Shown here piece after piece: positions 7,238 to 49,607 of a DNA stretch of 64,000 nt (positions are counted from its first letter, which is position 1; the number at the start of each line of letters is the position of its first letter). This DNA is from Geminisphaera colitermitum TAV2. GTDB taxonomy: Bacteria > Verrucomicrobiota > Verrucomicrobiia > Opitutales > Opitutaceae. Both the position numbers and the translations under genes were made by a program. The notes beneath the pieces are model-generated. The model did not search any database and had not been told where the DNA came from. It saw only the letters and a program-made list of their open reading frames with translations. The stretch is from positions 1-64,000 of the forward strand of contig NZ_ABEA03000195.1 in NCBI RefSeq assembly GCF_000171235.2, written 5' to 3'.

Positions 7238-8146
7238 ATGCCGCTCTATCGTATCACGCATACCACTACATGGACGCACCACGCCCCTGTCGCCACGGCG
7301 TGGCAGATGCTGCGCCTGCAACCGGGCGACACCACCGGCCAGCGTTGCCTTGACTGGCGGCTGTCCATCACGCCTGAGCCCGCCGTCATCACCACGCGAA
7401 CGGATTATTTTGGAAACCGGATGCACCTCTTCAACCTCAGCCAGCCCCATGCCCAACTTGTCATCCATGCCGTCAGCCGCGTCGCCCGTGAAGACATCCC
7501 GCCACCCGCGCTCGACCTCGATCTCACACCGCCCCCAGCCCTCGCCGCCCTCCAGACGACGCAGGCCATCCACTCCGGTGAATTTCAACTCGAACAATAC
7601 CGGCATCCCACCGCCCTCGTCCCTCATCTCCCGGAAGCCGCCTCTCTCGCCGCCGGTCTCGATCTCGCCGGCATGCCCGTGCTCACATGGCTGGCTGCGC
7701 TCGGAGAAAAGTTCGGACGCGACTACAAGTTCGACACGACCGTGACCACCATCGCCACCCCGCTCGCACAGGTGCTGCGCAATCGTCGCGGTGTGTGCCA
7801 GGACTTCGCGCACCTGTTTCTCAGTTGCCTTCGCCAGCACGGACTCGCCGCTGCCTACGTGAGCGGTTATCTCCTCACCGAACCGCCGCCCGGCTCTCCG
7901 CGTCTGCTCGGCGTCGATGCCATGCACGCCTGGATTTCTGTCCATGTCCCCGGCACCGGCTGGATCGATTACGATCCCACCAACCTGATGTTTGCGGGCG
8001 TCGGCCACATCACCGTCGCCCGAGGCCGCGACTACGCCGACATCACGCCCACCCGCGGCGTCTTCAGCGGTGCCGACTCCCACGCTCTCAAGGTGGAAGT
8101 CACCGTCCAGCCGGAGGACGAAATGGACTGCTCCTTCACTATATAA
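7238..8146 (+). CDS. Transglutaminase-like cysteine protease-fold protein
   Basis: Protein of 302 residues with an N-terminal beta-sandwich (transglut_N type, MPLYRITHTTTW) and a transglutaminase core. The catalytic triad is visible: Cys187 in RRGVCQDFAH, His230 in DAMHAWISV and Asp246 in IDYDPTN. It follows the ATP-grasp/alpha-E gene by 33 bp on the same strand and completes the three-gene island; such proteins are usually thought to act as peptidases or amidases on the product of the ligases. The 3' end overlaps the convergent FAD oxidoreductase frame by 115 bp, which is unusual for two genuine genes. Confidence 0.9.
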   Translation: MPLYRITHTTTWTHHAPVATAWQMLRLQPGDTTGQRCLDWRLSITPEPAVITTRTDYFGNRMHLFNLSQPHAQLVIHAVSRVAREDIPPPALDLDLTPPPALAALQTTQAIHSGEFQLEQYRHPTALVPHLPEAASLAAGLDLAGMPVLTWLAALGEKFGRDYKFDTTVTTIATPLAQVLRNRRGVCQDFAHLFLSCLRQHGLAAAYVSGYLLTEPPPGSPRLLGVDAMHAWISVHVPGTGWIDYDPTNLMFAGVGHITVARGRDYADITPTRGVFSGADSHALKVEVTVQPEDEMDCSFTI

Positions 8147-11031
8147 TCAAGGCCCAGCGCCCGCCGCGCCCGGGTCACCGCGTGGCGCAGTTGCCAGCCG
8201 TAGTCCTCGCGCACCTTCGCCGCCATTTGTTGCGCGGGTAACTCAGGAAACACCGTCGAATGCCCGGGATCACGCACGGCATTGGGCGCGAGCGTTGCCG
8301 ACAGCTTTTCGAGGATGGCCGTCACCTGCATCCGTTCCGAATCGGAAAGGGCAAACCGCCGGGCCAGCGCCTCGCAAGCGAGAGCTACGGCGCTGCGCAG
8401 GTTGAGAACCAGCGAGGTATCCGACGCCAGTTCTTCCAGCAACGGGAGGCTGGCCGGGGTGATGCAACGTTTGAGGAGCGTCACCGCCGCATACCAGCGC
8501 GGCACATAAAACCATTCCTGCTGCGGACGCGTGATGTCACGCGCCTTGGCGTCCTCGCGGGTGCGGAACGCCTGCCAAAGGCGTGGCTCGGAACGCGCGT
8601 CGCCCCACATCGCAAGAATCGCCGCGGCACGCCACGAAACAGTTGTATCGGGCGATGTGAGCCGTTTTTCAACCGCGGTGCGCGTCTCCTCGTCATGCCC
8701 CGACCGATACAAATGCCACAAGGCCACCGTGGCTGGTCCTGTCGTGAGTTCTTCCAACCAGCGGTCAGATATGCGAGCGGATGGCGTGATTGCCTGTTCG
8801 TTTTCAAAAAATTCCGGTGACGCAACATTGCTGCCAAACGAAGCAGCCAGTTCGGAAGGCGGCTCCAACTTCACCGCACCGGAGGTCAGCAGGTGCGGAT
8901 GCAGTTTTTCATATGGCAGGTCACGGCACGCCACGCCTGCCTGCGCGGCCAGCGCGCAACCCGCCCCGGCCGCTTCGCCGATGCGCTGGATGTCGCGCTG
9001 CATCCGAAACGAATGATGCGCCTCCTCGCTCACACCGACGGCGCGGCAGGCCAGCGTCACGTTTTTCAAGTCACGTGGCAGGAGGAGTCGCCAGGGAATT
9101 TCGCAGGCAAGGCGGCCATACCATTGCTGGCAAACCCACACCCAGAAGGCGGCTTCGACGCTTTCAAATTCATAATCGCGGGCATGGTTGTCGTAGTGTC
9201 CGCCGGTGCAGCCGACTGTATCCAGAAAACGGCGACGGCTGATGAGATCGTCGAGCGTGAGTTCGTAGTCCGTGCGGATGTGCCGCGACTGGCGCAGTCC
9301 GACGAGCGGTGCGATGTAGGTGGGATGATCGTCGGCGGTGTAGCGAGCGCGAGCGTAGTGCGAAACACCAACAAGGCGGGCGCGGGTCAGATCGAGTTCG
9401 TCGGTTGGGTTGCAGTAACCGGCGTCGTAATTGGGAATCTGCATTCGGGCCACGCCGTCTTTGACGGACACACGGCCGGAGGACTGGCTGTAAGCGTGAA
9501 GCAATCCGTCGCCCCTGCGTCCGAGTCGGAACGCTGCGCCCGCCATTGCCGCGAGGTCGCCGTCGCCGGTGGCATCGACCCAGCCGCGCGCGCGGATGCG
9601 GAGCGGGCCGCTTGGTGTGGAAAACAGGGCAGACTCCACCACTGCGTTTTTCGTTTCCACGGAAACGAGCATGGCATCGTAAACGACGTCCACGCCGGCT
9701 TCGGCGAGCATTTCGTCGAGTGCGATTTTTTTCGCCTCGGGGTGAAAACCACCAACCTGCCCCGCCGATCCGAAGAGCGGCATGATGTCGCGCACGCGGC
9801 GATTGATTTCTTCCTGCAAGCCGCCCGGCGCGCCGAAATAGTAAACATGAAACCCGCCGCCCGTCCCGATGCCTCCGGGAAAGGGCATTGCTTCGAATGC
9901 GAGCACGCGCGCGTTCGGCGTAGCACGCGCGGCGGCAATGGCCGCAACAGCCCCGCCGGTACCGAGTCCGGCAATGGCAACAAGTGGCGCGGGCGTCTCG
10001 CCCGCAATCTGCGATGTCGGCAGGATGCCTGCGCTGCCACGAAAGGACGATTGCAGGCAGGATGCCTGCGCTACGGGGCGACGCTGCGCGCCGTCTGCGG
10101 GCGTCTCGCCCGCGCCACATGCCGGCAGGATGCCGGCGCTCCCAGGCGCTGCCGCGCCATAGGTGAATTTCTCTGCCAGCGTCGCGCCGCATCCGCCAAG
10201 ATAACGGACATTCGTGGGCAAGTTGGGCGATGCGGGTTGCGCTAAATATTTTCTGAACGGCACCACACTCCCATGCGTGACGACTGCGCCTTTCAGATCG
10301 GCCTCCGGCACCGTGGAGCGAAGCGTGCGCAAGGCAGGCAACCAAGCCCGACGCGGATGCGTAAAATCTCCCGGCAACTCGATCCGCAAAATCTGTTCGC
10401 CGGGCCATAATCCCGGTTCCCATTGCAGACGCGCGATAGCGGGGAGTTCGGCGGGCGTGACGAGTTCGCACGCTGGCAACGATTCATCGCGCCCAAGTCG
10501 GAAGGTGATGTTGATGACCTGACTCTCCGGTTGCGGAGTCCTCCAATCGAGGACCAGCAAGGTTGCCAATTCGCCTGCGTCGGTGGCGTCGATCCATTCG
10601 CGTGCGGTGAGGTGATGCAGGCCGGATTTTGTTCCGATGGTCACCGTGCCAATCCCGCCCCCCCCTCCCCCCCCCCCTACCGCAACGGGAACGGCATGAT
10701 AAAGGACGGCGATGTTTCGGGTGCGCAGCCATTCGCTGGCGAAGATTTCTGTAATGGCGCCGTCAATACGTCCATCGCGCACCGCTCCGTGAACATCAAG
10801 GTGGGCCAGCCATTCGCGCCAAAGTGGATCGTCAGATTCGCCCGTGTCGGTGGCGAAGGACCACGAGCATTCGGCGAGCGGCGAGGCATGGCGGTCAACG
10901 AGCAACACGCGTTTGTCTGCGCGATGCGCGGCGAGCGTTGCGGCAAACCCAGCGCAACCGGCACCAAAAATGACGGTGTCGTAAACAGTGTTGTAAAATG
11001 AAGCGGCGTCAGCCGCGGTTTCGGATTTCAT
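8032..11031 (-). CDS. Large FAD-dependent oxidoreductase with HEAT-like tail; contains in-frame repeat insertion
   Basis: About 999 residues from ATG 11031 (MKSETAAD); the longer frame opens with GTG at 11079. Two dinucleotide-binding motifs are visible: VIFGAGCAGFAATLAAHR near residue 20 and VAIAGLGTGGAVAAIAAAR near 350, the second continuing into a typical FAD_oxidored core (WVDATGDGDLAAMAG). The C-terminal third is helical, with HEAT-like repeats (VSWRAAAILAMWGD, LLEELASDTSLVLNLRSAVAL). Between the two halves lie about 60 residues translated from a GC-rich palindromic repeat (9984-10160). Runs of G8 and G11 on the coding strand code for Gly. It is last in cassette A, 53 bp after the esterase/beta-helix gene. 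Oxidoreductase assignment firm; substrate unknown. Confidence 0.8.
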   Translation of the reverse strand: MKSETAADAASFYNTVYDTVIFGAGCAGFAATLAAHRADKRVLLVDRHASPLAECSWSFATDTGESDDPLWREWLAHLDVHGAVRDGRIDGAITEIFASEWLRTRNIAVLYHAVPVAVGGGGGGGGIGTVTIGTKSGLHHLTAREWIDATDAGELATLLVLDWRTPQPESQVINITFRLGRDESLPACELVTPAELPAIARLQWEPGLWPGEQILRIELPGDFTHPRRAWLPALRTLRSTVPEADLKGAVVTHGSVVPFRKYLAQPASPNLPTNVRYLGGCGATLAEKFTYGAAAPGSAGILPACGAGETPADGAQRRPVAQASCLQSSFRGSAGILPTSQIAGETPAPLVAIAGLGTGGAVAAIAAARATPNARVLAFEAMPFPGGIGTGGGFHVYYFGAPGGLQEEINRRVRDIMPLFGSAGQVGGFHPEAKKIALDEMLAEAGVDVVYDAMLVSVETKNAVVESALFSTPSGPLRIRARGWVDATGDGDLAAMAGAAFRLGRRGDGLLHAYSQSSGRVSVKDGVARMQIPNYDAGYCNPTDELDLTRARLVGVSHYARARYTADDHPTYIAPLVGLRQSRHIRTDYELTLDDLISRRRFLDTVGCTGGHYDNHARDYEFESVEAAFWVWVCQQWYGRLACEIPWRLLLPRDLKNVTLACRAVGVSEEAHHSFRMQRDIQRIGEAAGAGCALAAQAGVACRDLPYEKLHPHLLTSGAVKLEPPSELAASFGSNVASPEFFENEQAITPSARISDRWLEELTTGPATVALWHLYRSGHDEETRTAVEKRLTSPDTTVSWRAAAILAMWGDARSEPRLWQAFRTREDAKARDITRPQQEWFYVPRWYAAVTLLKRCITPASLPLLEELASDTSLVLNLRSAVALACEALARRFALSDSERMQVTAILEKLSATLAPNAVRDPGHSTVFPELPAQQMAAKVREDYGWQLRHAVTRARRALGLDYIVKEQSISSSGWTVTSTLRAWESAPLKTPRVGVMSA
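9984..10160. repeat. GC-rich palindromic repeat inserted inside a coding sequence
   Basis: Contains the family cores gcgggcgtctcgcccgc and gcaggcaggatgcctgcgctac, the same modules as the intergenic elements at 35792, 42070, 42910, 43617, 46234 and 62846. Here it is read in frame through the FAD oxidoreductase gene, giving SAGILPACGAGETPA-type peptide. Confidence 0.85.
10658..10677. repeat. Paired C8/C11 homopolymer runs inside FAD oxidoreductase gene
   Basis: C8, one T, then C11 on the plus strand, read on the minus strand as a stretch of Gly codons in the N-terminal half of the protein. Confidence 0.9.
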
Positions 11032-11114
11032 GGTGCAGGTTGATGCGGCACTCAGGATGAGCGACGGCTGGAACAACACGGCGAGGCCGATGGTGTTTTA
11101 CATACAGCATAGCT

Positions 11115-11129
11115 CCCCCCCCCCCCCCC
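11115..11129. repeat. C15 homopolymer in operon gap
   Basis: Fifteen C between the esterase/beta-helix stop (11133) and the FAD oxidoreductase start. The coding strand carries G here, the opposite of most other intergenic runs. Confidence 0.9.
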
Positions 11130-49584: not shown

Positions 49585-49607
49585 TCCCCCCCCCCCCCCC
49601 CCCCCCC
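49585..49607 (+). repeat. C23 homopolymer directly upstream of BNR-repeat gene 1
   Basis: Twenty-three C, ending 10 bp before the ATG 49618 and leaving no Shine-Dalgarno sequence. The longest run in the window. The paralogous gene at 54513 lacks it. Confidence 0.92.

Follow-up and report, generated by a model that had tools for sequence, protein, structure and literature searches.

Rickettsia palindromic elements are palindromic repeats that insert in frame in genes. GTAG-REPs located in frame within open reading frames (ORFs) were described by Di Nocera et al. (2013; PMC3733652), and Opitutus terrae, a relative, was the richest in intragenic GTAG repeats among the genomes examined there. According to that paper, the inserts derived from dimers or groups of repeats are mostly 20–30 residues long, while those derived from clusters in Thauera and R. 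conorii are 43–82 residues long. Two further points made there are relevant: the majority of the O. terrae GTAG-20 repeats have a GTGG tail, and different REPs are found near the same recB site in two Xanthomonas species. The insertions were considered to be perhaps neutral when located in linkers or loops. The role of RAYT transposases in REP movement is taken here from the same paper and from PMC8266576.

The stretch of DNA analysed in this study (the window; 64,000 nucleotides) is contig C31 of a draft genome that comprises 5.67 Mb on 225 contigs (G000, hereafter its own genome). The closest genome in the comparison is G001, of the same genus, referred to as the sister. We focus on a cluster of palindromic repeats inside an oxidoreductase gene; in a literature search, neither this gene nor its REP peptide was found in print.

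The oxidoreductase gene

The features of the gene, which lies on the minus strand, are as follows.

8032..11079, minus strand: gene for a two-domain oxidoreductase matching FAD_oxidored (PF12831), 1015 aa if started at GTG (ORF list, Pfam and orthologue)
10948..10965, minus strand: first dinucleotide-binding motif, GAGCAG (residues 39-44); G39, G41 and G44 are invariant in the alignments
9982..10164, minus strand: interdomain linker, residues 306-366, located by alignments; residues 314-358 are predicted to be disordered in the model
9952..9969, minus strand: second dinucleotide-binding motif, GLGTGG (residues 371-376); G371, G373 and G376 are invariant in the alignments

The Pfam match to FAD_oxidored was strong (E 1.3e-69; 235.9 bits against a cut-off of 27), and the orthologue in the sister, L051, is 75% identical over residues 24-978. 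A Foldseek search against the PDB matched the folds of flavin monooxygenases and reductases across about 330 columns; a sequence search against solved structures gave no match. No stop codon is found across the 1015 codons of the ORF, and an ATG near 11031 seems a more likely start than the GTG. The invariant glycines agree with the preliminary description, in which each half was credited with its own dinucleotide-binding motif.

The C-terminal residues of the oxidoreductase (window 8032-8150) are unlike those of the sister, and the end of a transglutaminase gene (7238-8146) lies antisense to them; according to tblastn, no transglutaminase gene adjoins the sister locus. The C-terminus was probably replaced through a downstream rearrangement, and because it appears rearranged, the full function of the oxidoreductase is not certain.

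Two other observations on the window are recorded here. One is that runs of C or G of at least 10 nt occur at 10667-10677 (a glycine run in the oxidoreductase), 11115-11129, 49586-49607 and 14 other places. In a sample of 848,876 bp, 248 such runs were counted (148 inside called ORFs), as compared with 8.6 expected for independent bases, and there was a single A/T run of at least 10 nt; the 12-mer of C gave 4853 matches (overlapping) in the window's own genome versus 13 in the same-genus genome. These homopolymer runs are either phase-variable tracts or an assembly artefact. The other is that long direct repeats, 92-93% identical and about 4.9 kb apart, are present at 49609-49908/54504-54803 and at 50358-50657/55247-55546.

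Structure of the palindromic cluster

The REP1 unit is 22 nt long and consists of a 5' tail (GTAG, GTGG or GGAG), one base, and a 7-bp stem with a 3-nt loop. The region 9984-10160 is made up of five such short palindromic units and spacers, in direct and inverted orientations, and is BIME-like. The hairpin core GCNGGCRTCYYGCCNGC occurs there in four exact copies, and the fifth unit has 2 mismatches to the tailed consensus.

9984..10005, plus strand: REP1 unit B, GTGG tail; 0 mismatches to GTRGCGCNGGCRTCYYGCCNGC; peptide AGETPAPL
10016..10037, minus strand: REP1 unit A', degenerate; 2 mismatches to GTRGCGCNGGCRTCYYGCCNGC; peptide GSAGILPT
10053..10074, minus strand: REP1 unit A, GTAG tail; 0 mismatches to GTRGCGCNGGCRTCYYGCCNGC; peptide VAQASCLQ, in a frame unlike that of A'
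10097..10118, minus strand: REP1 unit B, GTGG tail on the minus strand, hairpin loop reversed; exact core 10097-10113 on the plus strand; 3 mismatches to GTRGCGCNGGCRTCYYGCCNGC; peptide CGAGETPA
10119..10159, minus strand: REP1 unit C, GGAG tail (10121-10142), with a recurrent flank; 1 mismatch to GTRGCGCNGGCRTCYYGCCNGC; peptide GSAGILPA

In the sense of the gene, the order is C forward, B forward (loop reversed), A forward, A' forward and B reversed, and palindromic repeats encode nearly the whole linker (about residues 313-366, ~53 residues). The predicted RNA fold of the insert is more stable than the folds of shuffled versions (z -3.5). The preliminary description had proposed a member of a palindromic repeat family read in frame without a stop at 9984-10160, and the core counts given below and the ORF bear this out; its further view of a single 177-bp element gives way to one of five units and spacers, since among 62 blastn matches in the window's own genome only the window itself is full-length. 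Unit C and its flank (query positions about 136-176) recur in many of these matches with 90-98% identity.

Read on the minus strand, the region has no stop in the frame used by the 1015-aa ORF. The consensus units are stop-free in 5 of 6 frames (A), 6 of 6 (B), 6 of 6 (C) and 5 of 6 (REP2, a second family described below), the sole frame-closing stop being the TAG of the GTAG tail; for composition-matched sequence, the chance that any one frame is open is about one half. Given that the units close one frame at most, the openness of 9984-10160 is weak evidence by itself, and the coding status of the stretch is judged from homology and dN/dS instead. Within this gene, phase 0 is used for unit A and phase 1 for unit A', giving different peptides. 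The use of two reading phases for one DNA unit points to insertion at the DNA level and argues against a selected peptide.

REP families and RAYT genes in the genome

Exact REP1 cores number 20 in the window, as compared with 0 in each of 20 Markov-1 simulations of it, and 497 (253 + 244) in its own genome, for which the reversed-pattern control gave 0 + 0. In a search of 54 genomes, 233 cores were found in the sister, 0-45 in each of 34 other same-family genomes, and 0-2 in each of 18 same-order genomes. In an 849-kb sample (six contigs or contig parts, with ORFs called by a codon-usage script), the 88 cores have the tails GTGGC (43), GTAGC (22), GGAGC (5), GGACC (5) and others (13). The REP clusters in this sample number 53, of which 36 are intergenic and 33 consist of at least two units; the remaining clusters are located within an ORF with 90 nt or more to either end (10), within an ORF near one end (4), or across a gene end (3). 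A second family, REP2, has the form GTAG + GGGCNTCGC-TT-GCGANGCCC and is also present in this genome.

Y1_Tnp (PF01797) was found at six loci in G000 and at six in G001. Two of the G000 genes are flanked by REPs: the RAYT gene on contig C75 (L247) has two REP1 units per side, 157-513 bp away, and that on contig C50 (L249) has one REP2 unit per side, at 174 and 260 bp. Both have the HUH motif and match NF047646 of NCBIfam ('REP-associated tyrosine transposase') with 82.7 and 82.6 bits against a cut-off of 80. Exact REP1 or REP2 units on both sides were not found for the other four of the six G000 loci: at one of them REPs lie 1.8 kb away on a single side, and at the other three the stretch read contains none. 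None of the six G001 loci has exact REP1 or REP2 units in the stretch read. REP1 is a GTAG-type REP, being a palindromic unit with a GTAG-like tail that is present in high copy, is mostly intergenic and is RAYT-flanked. By analogy with the described systems, the mechanism behind the cluster would most likely be that of REP/RAYT.

Pfam was run on 7 of the 13 other genes with inside REP clusters in the 849-kb sample. For four of the seven (P-type ATPase, GH2 beta-galactosidase, DsbD and PheT), domains flank the in-frame REP on both sides or span it; for the other three (NuoM, LacI type and GH10), domains are found on one side only, and here the REPs may form a terminal extension or lie outside the true gene. 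These other genes read the REP units in still other frames than the oxidoreductase does. For the P-type ATPase, the relatives vary too at the REP site. The PheT gene (phenylalanine-tRNA ligase beta; L134:7269-9707 = G000:C185:207269-209707) contains, at the B5 domain, a REP core in frame together with an LDVGR-type stretch. According to tblastn rows and the aligned rows L262 and L264, PheT in the sister and in four other genomes matches without the insert; in the sister, query residues 468-504 are unmatched, and its two tblastn matches are 18 nt apart.

Selection and predicted structure

The dN/dS values against the sister (NG86) were 0.13 for the N half (272 codons), 0.11 for the C half (402 codons) and 0.21 for the HEAT part (193 codons); for the insert codons the value was 0.72 (51 codons, poorly aligned). 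The dS between the window gene and the sister is 0.9-1.6, and the N half is near saturation. In the C half, 171 of the 244 changes are at third codon positions. Judged from these comparisons, both halves of the oxidoreductase are under purifying selection.

These values bear on the explanation that the oxidoreductase is a decaying pseudogene in which the REPs are in frame by chance. Three features could be taken that way: the C-terminal tail, which is unlike the sister's and antisense to a neighbouring gene; the poly-C tract at 10667-10677, which codes for the glycine run; and a paralogue, L057, that has no readable N-terminal part. Nevertheless, dN/dS stays at 0.11-0.21 outside the linker, third-position changes dominate, and all 1015 codons are free of stops, so that we regard decay as very unlikely.

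The AlphaFold2 model of the window protein, built from nine sequences, has a mean pLDDT of 75.3, and the flanking domains are mostly at 80-95. Structure prediction of the insert, a check named in the preliminary description, gave pLDDT below 50 for residues 314-358; this low value may in part be due to the few sequences (9 rows). In the model of the REP-free orthologue L164 (from an Opitutaceae MAG; 38-aa linker, 55% identity in the best segment), residues 307-321 form a helix and residues 344-353 a strand, and no stretch falls below 50 across 301-350. In the model of the window protein, the helix stops at 310 and the strand begins at 367. These models, made from few sequences, suggest that a predicted-ordered linker was exchanged for a predicted-disordered one.

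The linker among relatives

The linkers of 22 sequences were aligned, including the window and four remote relatives (L013, L059, L061 and L062); L009 was left out. A REP match was defined as at most 3 mismatches for REP1 and at most 4 for REP2. REP-bearing linkers were found in 3 of the 22: the window (61 aa), the sister orthologue (59 aa, a REP2 pair) and the paralogue L057 (46 aa, one REP1). The other 19 are REP-free, and 15 of them are 30-40 aa long; the longer ones are L055 (49 aa), L053 (57 aa), L061 (49 aa) and L062 (87 aa), the last two being remote and doubtfully aligned. The two-half proteins L164-L171 have REP-free linkers of 38-40 aa, and the same two-half architecture, short-linked and REP-free, occurs in Opitutaceae, Phycisphaeraceae, Planctomycetota and Lentisphaerae. 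A native linker of the form xxGxxxAxxL is seen in many relatives and is absent in the window and the sister.

Since the native linker of about 38 aa is missing and the window linker is 61 aa long, the net gain is about 22 residues, accompanied by overwriting. Aligning the orthologues, as the preliminary description had suggested, thus revealed REP-free ones with linkers mostly of 30-40 aa, and its estimate of about 60 added residues becomes a replacement of the native linker. The linker DNAs of the window and the sister have no significant similarity (local score 22; shuffles, mean 19.7 and maximum 31). This dissimilarity is compatible with a single ancestral event and later turnover as well as with two independent events. 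A common ancestral insertion was considered in particular and is not demonstrated, the DNA being dissimilar and the sole support being that the native linker is missing in both between the same flanks.

Two members deserve separate mention. L057 (G000:C185:134500-138900) has an 826-aa frame without a readable N-terminal Rossmann part and may be a pseudogene or a broken gene, to judge from its sequence. In L053 (G000:C185:147500-152000), the 57-aa linker contains proline runs as well as a repeated TTGGACG heptamer; the relative L054 in G001, 73% identical to L053, has a 34-aa linker. The heptamer was rejected as a second dispersed family: its exact 21-mer is found at one place in the genome only, although PheT has a similar peptide.

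The palindrome had also been interpreted as the junction of a recent fusion of two genes, each bringing a dinucleotide-binding motif. A GxGxxG motif does lie in each half, and many proteins match the C half alone (of 80 loci, most match only about residues 350-740). However, two-half proteins with short linkers free of REPs occur in distant relatives (L164-L171), so that the halves were joined before the REPs arrived; fusion of separate genes at the element is extremely improbable. It is just as hard to believe that the insert is a real conserved domain or peptide merely resembling a repeat, for although the sister linker is of like length (59 vs 61 aa), its sequence is dissimilar at this place, one DNA unit is translated in two frames here and in others elsewhere, the linker is predicted to be disordered, and the core has 497 copies genome-wide. 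A peptide conserved here in all orthologues, which the preliminary description had named as its refutation, was not observed, the place being unconserved.

Probable origin of the linker

We consider it highly probable that a functional FAD oxidoreductase acquired a GTAG-type REP cluster, in frame, in the linker between its two domains, most likely through the following steps. According to the literature, RAYT transposases, coded beside the same REPs, would spread REPs via single-stranded DNA. Copies landing in genes would mostly be lost, while a permissive linker would tolerate the units. The units being open in nearly all frames, only a frame-keeping length would be needed. Insertion with deletion overwrote the native linker and left two intact halves joined by a predicted-disordered REP peptide, as the comparison and the models show. 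The linkers of the window and the sister differ and carry different REP families (REP1 vs REP2); the REP content may have turned over once the two species had diverged, or each species may have been hit separately.

A more far-reaching idea is that the linker of this flavoprotein family is a hot spot in which REPs repeatedly overwrite native sequence: the REP1 cluster in the window, the REP2 pair in the sister, the one REP1 in the paralogue and the heptamer repeat in a third member. We think this unlikely. If it were true, RAYT activity would repeatedly build and rebuild interdomain linkers, converting them from ordered to disordered while the domains remain under selection.

Comparison with known systems

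In-frame REPs in genes are already known, and the present case adds a member; the interesting part is the recurrence of REPs, and their possible turnover, at the linker of this protein family. The locus offers a clear natural case of non-coding mobile DNA turned into protein sequence, with REP-free orthologues, a sister carrying another REP family, purifying selection, and a RAYT gene beside each family. The published idea that insertions survive in flexible linkers is directly testable here, and it may need a correction: the replaced linker looks ordered in the models of a relative.

The parallel with the Rickettsia palindromic elements, drawn in the preliminary description, holds for the way of working. 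As far as the published descriptions go, these elements and the Wolbachia palindromes are likewise palindromic repeats in frame in unrelated, probably functional genes, the likeness being one of mode and not of sequence. The Rickettsia elements belong to another phylum, whereas here the repeats are short REPs and RAYT genes stand beside them in the genome. REPtrons (RAYT/TnpA_REP with flanking REPs) resemble the two RAYT genes of this genome that have REP1 or REP2 on either side; they differ from the insert in the window, which has no transposase and represents only the non-autonomous part.

The GTAG-REPs of O. terrae, in the account cited above, share with the present repeats the short palindromes, the GTAG-type tail, the inverted pairs and clusters, and the mostly intergenic location with some copies in frame. 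As in the O. terrae GTAG-20 repeats, GTGG is the commonest tail here (43 of 88 cores), a likeness that concerns the description of the tail and not the consensus. There are differences: the five units here code for about 53 residues, above the general 20-30; the linker they replaced is ordered in the models of a relative; and the orthologue carries another REP family.
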